Of a stretch of DNA of 64,000 nucleotides, positions 9,282-13,851 are shown in pieces. Source of the stretch: Pseudoglutamicibacter albus (GTDB taxonomy: Bacteria > Actinomycetota > Actinomycetes > Actinomycetales > Micrococcaceae); contig NZ_JAVDXX010000001.1 of assembly GCF_031458175.1 (NCBI RefSeq), positions 558,001-622,000 of the forward strand, in the 5' to 3' direction. The notes under the pieces are model-generated. The model had not been told where the DNA came from. It saw only the letters and a list, made by a program, of their open reading frames with translations, and ran no database searches. The stretch's first letter is position 1; each line of letters opens with the position of its first letter. Made by a program: the position numbers and the translations under genes.

Positions 9282-10196
9282 GTGAACCCGAACCCTGTGA
9301 TCGCGGTGGTCGGCCCGACCGGCACCGGTAAATCCGAGCTCGCCCTTGATCTGTGCCACATGCTCAATGGAGAAGTGGTCAACACGGATGCGCTGCAGTT
9401 CTATCGCGGCATGGACATCGGTACAGCCAAGCTTCCTGTGGCGCAGCGGCAGGGGATCGAACACCATCTGCTCGACATCATGGATGTGACCGAGGAAGCC
9501 TCGGTTGCGGTGTTCCAACAGCAAGCCCGCGATGCGATCGCTGAGATCCAGGCGCGCGGGAGGACCGCTGTGCTGGTAGGTGGTTCTGGGCTATATGTGC
9601 GCGCGGTTTTAGATGAGATCGAGTTCCCGCCCACCGATCCGGAGGTCCGCGCCGAGATCGAGGCGTGGGCTGATGCGCGTAGTGCCGAGGAGGTCCGCGA
9701 GGCTCTGCGTGCAGTCGATCCGGCGAGCGCTGAGAAAATCACTGACGTGCGCCGCATGATCCGCGCGCTTGAAGTCCACCGCATCAGCGGCCGCGCATTC
9801 ACCTCGTTCATGCCGCAACGCATCTATCACCAGCCCGCCGTCCAGGTGGGGCTTGACCTTGACCCGGCTGTCCTCAACGAGGCCCTCTTGCAGCGGGTCC
9901 ACCGGATGTATCAAGCAGGCTTGCTGGATGAGGTCCGCGAGCTCATCACGCACGGCCTGCGGGAAGGCCGGACCGCATCGGCGGCTATTGGGTATAAACA
10001 AGCGCTCGCCGTGCTCGATGGTCAGATGAGCCAGGACGAAGCGATCGAGAGCACCCACATCGCCACGCGGCAGTTCGCCAAGCGGCAGAGAACATGGTTC
10101 CGTGCTGATCCGCGTGTCAAGCATTACGATGCCGGCGCCGGCGCGCGCGAGATCGCCCGGGCATTCGTTGCCGAAGCCATCCCGGAGGCTCTCTAG
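9282..10196 (+). CDS. miaA: tRNA dimethylallyltransferase
   Basis: A 304-residue enzyme that transfers a dimethylallyl group to A37 of tRNAs reading UNN codons, the step before MiaB. P-loop GPTGTGKSELALDL is at residues 10-23. NTDALQFYRGMDIGTAK holds the conserved Asp/Thr region and RTASAAIGYKQAL is the family C-terminal signature. It starts at GTG 9282, 14 bases after the miaB stop, with no clear Shine-Dalgarno, so it probably depends on coupling with miaB. Confidence 0.96.
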   Translation: MNPNPVIAVVGPTGTGKSELALDLCHMLNGEVVNTDALQFYRGMDIGTAKLPVAQRQGIEHHLLDIMDVTEEASVAVFQQQARDAIAEIQARGRTAVLVGGSGLYVRAVLDEIEFPPTDPEVRAEIEAWADARSAEEVREALRAVDPASAEKITDVRRMIRALEVHRISGRAFTSFMPQRIYHQPAVQVGLDLDPAVLNEALLQRVHRMYQAGLLDEVRELITHGLREGRTASAAIGYKQALAVLDGQMSQDEAIESTHIATRQFAKRQRTWFRADPRVKHYDAGAGAREIARAFVAEAIPEAL

Positions 10197-10224: not shown

Positions 10225-10237
10225 TAGGCTGGGGTCA
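10225..10237 (+). promoter_or_regulatory. -10 element for leaderless DapF-family gene
   Basis: TAGGCT at -12 to -7 relative to the ATG at 10237, with no ribosome-binding site; the same geometry as at miaB, hisC and argC. Confidence 0.55.
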
Positions 10238-11208
10238 TGGTCGATCCGCTCTCGAATGACGTCCCGGTGAGCCTTGCCGGTGCGAGTTTTGCCCGCGTCA
10301 CCGCGGGCGCTGTCCCGTTTCTGATCAGCACGGCAGCGACCGTGAGCGAAGCCGAAGCCCAGTGGCTGTGCGACGGCTCCGCTGGGCTCGGTGCGGCAGG
10401 CGTGATCACGGTGTCTCAACAAGGGGACAGCGTAGGAGCTAATACTGGCGCATGGCACTGCGTTCTGACGGGGGCATCAGGGGCCCCGGTTCCTGAGCTA
10501 GAGCCCGATGCGGCACTAGCGGTGGCCGCCTACCTCGATGAGGCTGGTCAGTTGGGCGCGGGCACGCGGCTCGAATTCGGTTCGGGTGAGGCATACGTGG
10601 TCTCGCGTTCGCGGGGTAACTATAAGGTCGCTGGGGTGCGGTGGTCGTTCGCGTTCCCGCAGCAGGCCCAAGCAAAAGCCAGTGACGGCACGGTCCAGGC
10701 TGAGGGTGTACCGGTGGCCCGTCCGTGCCTCACGATGACCGTTGGCGCGCCGGTTTCTGTGGTTGCGCTCGCGGATGTGTCCGAGCTTGACCGGCTACGT
10801 TTGGATGAGCGCGGCCCGCAGCTGGATTCCGAGGTGCTTGAGCGTTCGTCGACGAGCTTCGTTGTTCCGCATGATCCGCTGGTCGAACGCGGTATCGCTG
10901 CGGTGTCGATGCGTTTCTATCATGCGCACGATGCGTTAGCAGGCAACAGCGGCGACACTGCCAGCATCAGTATGGCAGGGAGGCGGCTTTCGCGCGAATA
11001 CGGTTCGAGTGTGGCTGCCGCGGTCGCGGGATCGGTTGCGTTCCAGTACTGGGCAGGCTCCGGTAGGGACATCGCGGAAGGCTGGGCGGTGAACCAGCCA
11101 TCAGCGCTCGTGGGGGTCCGGCTTGAGCCGGGGTCCGCATCGAACGCTTCCGGAACAGCGCAGGCAACGGGGCCTGCGCGCGTCATCGCGAAGATCCAGC
11201 TGCGCTAG
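10237..11208 (+). CDS. dapF: Diaminopimelate epimerase-family protein lacking both catalytic cysteines
   Basis: A 323-residue intact frame following miaA, the usual DapF site in actinobacteria. Its C-terminal half aligns with DapF in pattern (SFVVPHDPLV..GIAAVSMRF, FQYWAGSG, NQPSALVGVRLEPG, SGTAQATGPARVIA). However, the N-terminal GTGNDF motif reads TAGAVPF. The first active-site region (NADGS-x-AEMCGNG in the family) reads LTGASGAPVPELEPD at about 77-91. The second (ERG-x-GET-x-x-CGTG) is replaced in 226-265, with YGSS where CGTG is expected. No cysteine remains in either motif. The family is therefore recognisable but epimerase activity is unlikely; a pseudoenzyme or decaying gene is possible. 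Confidence 0.75.
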   Translation: MVDPLSNDVPVSLAGASFARVTAGAVPFLISTAATVSEAEAQWLCDGSAGLGAAGVITVSQQGDSVGANTGAWHCVLTGASGAPVPELEPDAALAVAAYLDEAGQLGAGTRLEFGSGEAYVVSRSRGNYKVAGVRWSFAFPQQAQAKASDGTVQAEGVPVARPCLTMTVGAPVSVVALADVSELDRLRLDERGPQLDSEVLERSSTSFVVPHDPLVERGIAAVSMRFYHAHDALAGNSGDTASISMAGRRLSREYGSSVAAAVAGSVAFQYWAGSGRDIAEGWAVNQPSALVGVRLEPGSASNASGTAQATGPARVIAKIQLR

Positions 11209-11250: not shown

Positions 11251-11859
11251 TCAAGCCGGGCGGGCCACGCGCAGAATCCGGAACTCTTTCTTTCTCGCGT
11301 AGCGTTCAACGCTCCACTCTCCCGGCAGGTTTTCGGCGAGCCATTTCTGTAGGGAATCTGAGCCGAGGTTTTTCTGGACCACAAGATACGCCTCGCCGCC
11401 CGGGTTGAGGCGCGGAAGCCACGTCATGAGGATCTCGTGGAGGACCTGCTTACCCACACGGATCGGTGGGTTGGACCAGATGAGGTCGAAACTTACATCG
11501 GCCGGCACCGCCTCCGGTGTGCACACCGTGACGTTGCGAGCGCCGGCATCGGCCGCGTTGAGACGGGCCAGATCCATCGCGCGTTCGTTGACATCGACAC
11601 CCCACACCTCAGCCTGTGGAGAAGTCAGCGCGAGCGTGAGCAAGATGGGTCCCCAACCGCACCCGATGTCGAGCATCGTTCCGTGGGCCCGCGGGCTAGG
11701 AGCTTCATCCAATAAAATCTGGGTTCCCTTATCCACACCGGCGGGGCTGAAAATGCCCGAAGCGGTATGAACGTCAAGTTCCCGGTCAGCCAGAGAAACC
11801 GTAATGCGCTTGCGTGCCTCGGGAGTCACCGGTTCCGCTGTGAAGTAATGCTCGGCCAT
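11251..11859 (-). CDS. Class I SAM-dependent methyltransferase, RsmC-like
   Basis: A 202-residue methyltransferase of the MTS (RsmC/RlmG) type. Motif I is MLDIGCGWGPILL and the catalytic motif is WSNPPIRVGK (N-P-P-I), typical of guanine-N2 rRNA methyltransferases. Start at 11859 (MAEHYFTAEP) is preferred over the longer frame. On the minus strand, TAGGCT lies 8 bases before this ATG and there is no Shine-Dalgarno, giving a near-leaderless message. The gene is shorter than E. coli RsmC, having only one methyltransferase domain. It is convergent with the dapF-like gene. Confidence 0.82.
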   Translation of the reverse strand: MAEHYFTAEPVTPEARKRITVSLADRELDVHTASGIFSPAGVDKGTQILLDEAPSPRAHGTMLDIGCGWGPILLTLALTSPQAEVWGVDVNERAMDLARLNAADAGARNVTVCTPEAVPADVSFDLIWSNPPIRVGKQVLHEILMTWLPRLNPGGEAYLVVQKNLGSDSLQKWLAENLPGEWSVERYARKKEFRILRVARPA

Positions 11860-11914
11860 GGAACACAAGCCTAACCGAGGCACAGGGCCGCAGGTGGGTC
11901 GCTGCGGCACGGTC

Positions 11915-11963
11915 GCGACGACACCGGCGCTACGGCAGGGTTGCGACGACACCGGCGCTACGG
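11915..11963 (+). repeat. 21-bp direct repeat with 28-bp period
   Basis: The same 21-base sequence (GCGACGACACCGG...CTACGG) occurs at 11915-11935 and 11943-11963. It lies in the intergenic region between the divergent methyltransferase gene and hflX. Confidence 0.85.

Positions 11964-12036: not shown

Positions 12037-13847
<1,811 letters not shown>

Positions 13848-13851
<4 letters not shown>

Follow-up and report, generated by a model that had tools for sequence, protein, structure and literature searches.

The diaminopimelate (DAP) epimerase DapF is an antibacterial target and has been described almost only as an enzyme. In the succinylase branch of the pathway, DapD and DapE together yield L,L-DAP, and the dehydrogenase Ddh takes tetrahydrodipicolinate to meso-DAP in a single step. 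PhzF-type isomerases have the DapF fold and function without a cysteine pair, as do some members among the PhzF and proline racemase relatives. Pseudoenzymes as a kind are already known; a search of open-licence papers turned up no description of a DapF that is catalytically dead in nature. In Escherichia coli, the catalytically dead DapF(C73A/C217A) still binds and activates RppH (PMC4227774; DapF-RppH complex, PDB 6d13 and 6vck), so that there a DapF body free of catalysis can bind and stimulate a partner.

Here we describe a DapF-derived protein without catalytic residues (pseudo-DapF) from Pseudoglutamicibacter albus and regard it, with rather more confidence than doubt, as a pseudoenzyme that has been retained for some function other than catalysis, probably the binding of another protein. 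Compared with DapF proper (PF01678, TIGR00652; for example Corynebacterium glutamicum DapF, PDB 5h2g, 5h2y and 5m47), it has the same descent, locus, length and predicted fold but lacks the catalytic cysteines and the substrate-contact motifs and falls under the profile cut-offs. Its gene lies at 10237..11208 on the plus strand of the window, the whole 64-kb stretch of DNA analysed (G000:C1:558001-622000, within a complete 2.22-Mb genome), and was recognised from its open reading frame, alignment, dN/dS and predicted fold. The frame starts with ATG and encodes 323 amino acids. It follows miaA (9282..10196, plus strand; TIGR00174, E 9.9e-75, and synteny) after a gap of 40 nt and is the final plus-strand gene ahead of the convergent gene of an RsmC-like methyltransferase (11251..11952, minus strand; from synteny). 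Both of these conserved neighbours provide context and dN/dS controls. Further along lies another conserved neighbour, an open reading frame at 12037..13851 (plus strand; from the frame and synteny) that we take, from its sequence and the gene order, to encode an hflX-type GTPase. The order recA - miaB - miaA - dapF - methyltransferase - hflX - dinG is common to nearly all the family genomes compared. Separately, just upstream of the window (about 554.6-557.5 kb; L147 3621-6481), an RNase J gene stands directly 3' of dapA, and in this genome a lysine-pathway gene therefore adjoins an RNA-decay gene; RNase J acts in mRNA degradation after 5'-pyrophosphate removal (PMC4227774).

The pseudo-DapF gene is a dapF by descent. 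The protein shares approximately 26-38% identity with intact Micrococcaceae DapFs at the same syntenic place, with E values down to 2.5e-25, which bears out the preliminary description in putting a DapF-family protein at the dapF site, 3' of miaA. A protein search found homologues in 31 of 39 genomes, and 26 of the 28 matches outside the genus came from genomes with an intact DapF, the other two being in genomes without one (G017 and G022). The window protein does not reach the curated DapF cut-offs (PF01678, TIGR00652), and no Pfam or NCBIfam model matches pseudo-DapF even at E<=10; the Yaniella/Enteractinococcus homologues give sub-threshold scores of up to 29.2 bits for PF01678 and 38.4 bits for TIGR00652. 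The family profiles miss pseudo-DapF because the DapF motifs, both cysteines included, have been replaced. Alignment with intact relatives places VTAGAVPF at the former motif 1 (GHGTGNDF; residues 21-28, 10297..10320, plus strand), ELEPDA at the former first catalytic-cysteine motif (EMCGNG; residues 87-92, 10495..10512, plus strand) and SSVAA at the former second one (SCGTG; residues 257-261, 11005..11019, plus strand), where the ERGVGET-SCGTG stretch of intact DapFs is replaced. The residues aligned to MDYRN, GNPH and GTNVEF are mostly altered too. The alignment thus upholds the earlier statement that the two catalytic cysteines have been lost along with all three active-site motifs. The conservation of the two cysteines elsewhere in the chain, which would have spoken against it, was also checked in the alignment and is not seen: the window protein has cysteines at 45, 75 and 164, none of them at a catalytic position. 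Pseudo-DapF retains 35 of the 88 columns that are invariant among 14 intact DapFs, most of them Gly, Trp, Leu, Val and Ala. In addition, about 20 extra residues stand ahead of the former motif 3 (residues 233-254, window 10933-10998), an insertion that is shorter in G001 and G002. The catalytic cysteines are likewise gone in 12 other aligned pseudo-DapFs, and the loss is not peculiar to this genome, since it recurs in every genome of the genus looked at and in two further genera. From the loss of the motifs, pseudo-DapF is predicted to have no L,L-DAP epimerase activity.

The remainder of the pathway can be read from the gene content. PF01678 has no match anywhere in the complete 2.22-Mb genome, so the genome has no second dapF, a case that the preliminary description had raised as a possibility. 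Lysine was in that case expected to require DAP dehydrogenase or uptake, and a gene for the former is present: ddh (meso-DAP dehydrogenase; TIGR01921, E 2e-137), dapB and lysA are all found above their cut-offs, and dapA adjoins dapB. No dapD or dapE above cut-off occurs in the genome, an absence that goes beyond the preliminary description, as does the same retention of the dapF body in two separate lineages. Meso-DAP and lysine are accordingly predicted, from these genes, to come via Ddh. With Ddh present and dapD, dapE and an intact dapF absent, L,L-DAP epimerisation is therefore no longer required. The replacement of the succinylase route by the Ddh route is thus the same here as in the known cases, with dapD and dapE lost; both genes are above cut-off in none of the 14 pseudo-DapF genomes versus 10 of 10 comparison genomes of the family with an intact dapF. 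A still-active DAP epimerase working through relocated residues would fit the DapF fold and locus, but it is highly improbable: no aligned member retains either catalytic cysteine, hardly any of the substrate-contact motif residues survive in them, and the genome lacks dapD and dapE, through which the succinylase route supplies L,L-DAP.

Among 395 genomes of the family, 61 carry ddh above cut-off and 17 have no PF01678 match. Pseudo-DapF is found in 14 genomes, comprising Pseudoglutamicibacter (G000, G001, G002 and G056), Auritidibacter (G017) and nine of Yaniella/Enteractinococcus. All 14 have a cysteine-less open reading frame of about 300-320 amino acids at the same place (the copy in G180 is cut by a contig end), and synteny was found in 9 of 9 loci checked. 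Thirteen of these genomes also have a ddh gene; the one in which none was found, G180, is 71% complete. Both ddh and an intact dapF occur together in 47 genomes, and the presence of ddh therefore does not by itself bring about the loss of dapF. Three further apparent losses of dapF (G142, G161 and G356) were not counted; a miaA match is also missing there, and the region is probably absent from the assemblies. In two other genomes that keep an intact dapF, it is ddh that appears broken, by an in-frame TGA or TAG or a split frame (G137:C1:2058471-2059413 and G243:C12:33262-34237), which suggests that redundancy between ddh and dapF may also resolve in the opposite way; a sequencing error is possible. 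Outside the family, a ddh-bearing genome of the same order that lacks dapD and dapE (G026) has the methyltransferase gene directly after miaA (L144, G026:C1:1243000-1253000), and no dapF relic was found at that miaA-methyltransferase locus. Whereas the pseudo-DapF genomes have kept dapF as a pseudoenzyme, this genome has deleted it outright, and the clean deletion shows that retention of the dapF body is not inevitable.

Selection on the retained body was assessed as pairwise dN/dS by the Nei-Gojobori method with a codon bootstrap. The ratio for pseudo-DapF is 0.120-0.199 in Pseudoglutamicibacter, with an upper 95% limit of at most 0.273, and 0.073-0.123 in Yaniella; for the same pairs, the controls give 0.061-0.126 (miaA) and 0.077-0.123 (methyltransferase). 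Pseudo-DapF is under purifying selection and is not decaying, and the two marks of a pseudoenzyme, loss of the catalytic residues and purifying selection, are both found in it. Of the constraint or very recent decay that the preliminary description had offered as alternatives, constraint therefore stands, at 0.12-0.20 within the genus, and decay does not. The lost catalytic motifs and the somewhat faster evolution of the Pseudoglutamicibacter protein relative to miaA would suit a pseudogene in decay that is still free of stop codons, but this reading is refuted by dN/dS of 0.07-0.20, whose upper 95% limits stay below 0.28, and by frames that are intact in 14 genomes of three genera. Synonymous divergence between G000/G056 and G001/G002 is alike for pseudo-DapF, miaA and the methyltransferase (pS 0.42-0.49); selection therefore acts on the encoded protein. 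The end of the convergent neighbour lies nearby, as might be expected if the DNA rather than the protein were kept and an overlapping gene or RNA element preserved the frame, but with synonymous sites as free as those of the two controls such a constraint is exceedingly improbable.

Within the protein, the distribution of conserved columns differs from that of the active enzymes. In intact DapFs the active-site columns are 0.94 identical versus 0.51 elsewhere, and in the Yaniella pseudo-DapFs the former active-site columns are 0.59 identical versus 0.59 elsewhere. The corresponding values for Pseudoglutamicibacter, 0.92 versus 0.84, come from three close sequences only and allow little to be read from them. 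Judged by the Yaniella columns, selection has shifted its target away from the active site.

The full two-domain DapF fold is predicted to have been kept. An AlphaFold2 model of the window protein (pLDDT 82.5, pTM 0.85) aligns along its entire length with C. glutamicum DapF, at Foldseek rank 2 and with a VIA-align Z of 27.1 (rmsd 2.7 over 258 residues); a second pseudo-DapF model has a pLDDT of 88.9 and a Z of 27.5 to the same structure. The insertion at residues 233-254 is of low confidence in the model, with pLDDT under 50. The beta-16 strand is the main dimer contact of C. glutamicum DapF (PMC5296763), and the model has a C-terminal strand at residues 314-321, beta-16 being taken here as the C-terminal strand. 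PhzF and proline racemase relatives have the same two-domain fold as the model, at a sequence identity of only about 9-14%, and PhzF structures align to it with Z of 21-23.

That similarity to PhzF could also be cited for a neofunctionalised enzyme, in which the DapF fold would carry out a different reaction through carboxylate or other residues. The best hint of this kind is an acidic residue at the Asn of CGNG, D91 in the window protein and D or E in 13 of 13 aligned pseudo-DapFs. Furthermore, the former motif 1 and motif 2 regions have taken new, lineage-specific conserved forms (in Yaniella, for instance, TGPxGDW), a change that might reflect a new ligand or chemistry instead of pure scaffolding. 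A new enzyme is nevertheless unlikely, as few other new cleft residues are common to both lineages, the former active-site columns of Yaniella show no excess of conservation over the remaining columns, and no new pathway gene adjoins what is an ordinary miaA-dapF-hflX locus. The new conserved residues in the former motifs, together with the two-domain cleft fold that the model retains, would similarly be in keeping with a metabolite-binding sensor, one that would hold a small molecule such as lysine or DAP without converting it and would control the pathway or the cell wall. This, too, is quite unlikely, given that both lineages have replaced almost all of the motif residues that contact DAP and that neither the Pfam and NCBIfam profiles nor the model reveals an attached DNA-binding or signalling domain. 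Of all the alternatives, a new enzyme and a sensor are nonetheless the two that stay in contention.

Judged by the genes around dapF, the three genera fall into two separate lineages. In a tree built from six of these neighbours, concatenated, Pseudoglutamicibacter groups with G012, and Auritidibacter and Yaniella group with G003, both strongly supported. Placing the three genera in one clade was rejected by this tree (AU p 3.6e-31); the same one-clade test on single genes gave p 0.037 for miaA and p 0.17 for the methyltransferase. In the dapF tree itself, all pseudo-DapFs are grouped (87/98), on very long branches, and the native placement of either lineage is not rejected (p 0.21 and 0.24). 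When Pseudoglutamicibacter is left out, the Yaniella pseudo-DapFs join their own species relatives (98/98, and 99/98 without Auritidibacter as well). Two independent losses of the active site, with the body retained, are preferred and probably occurred, and gene transfer between the lineages is possible. The ddh tree, for its part, unites Pseudoglutamicibacter, Auritidibacter/Yaniella and genus g4 (G049 and G115) in one clade apart from the other ddh genes of the family (100/100; loci L121-L140), which hints at the horizontal spread of one ddh type.

Returning to a pseudoenzyme kept for a role other than catalysis, the computed results are that DapF catalysis is dispensable, with the Ddh route as an evident metabolic cause in these very genomes, and that dapF has stayed at its locus under purifying selection, having lost the cysteines and most substrate-binding residues, with its fold predicted to be kept. 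The proposal that goes beyond them is that the folded body rather than the active site would do the job. Acting through its surface, the protein would most likely serve another cytoplasmic protein as a (probably dimeric) binding partner or allosteric cofactor. RppH-like Nudix hydrolases, MiaA, HflX and Ddh itself are candidate partners only. A binding role is proposed by analogy because E. coli DapF(C73A/C217A) still binds and stimulates RppH. That protein is a laboratory mutant of an active proteobacterial enzyme, whereas the loss in pseudo-DapF is natural and common to whole genera; the RppH interaction is known from E. coli only. More tentatively, and with somewhat more doubt than confidence, a catalysis-independent second function may be ancestral in actinobacterial DapF, in which case ddh would have freed the protein from catalysis in two separate lineages, and selection would have kept the body in each and let the active site go.

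Were such an ancestral second function real, the two lineages would amount to two parallel natural separation-of-function experiments. They could also offer a clean system for finding the second function of DapF, since the gene should be removable with the lysine and cell-wall supply left undisturbed. The lineages in question span three genera, related to one another, whose members are bacteria associated with soil and animals. That they have dropped the catalysis and the preceding enzymes yet keep the DapF body suggests that DapF has a further function in Actinobacteria, in parallel with the extra role in proteobacteria to which the work on RppH in E. coli pointed.
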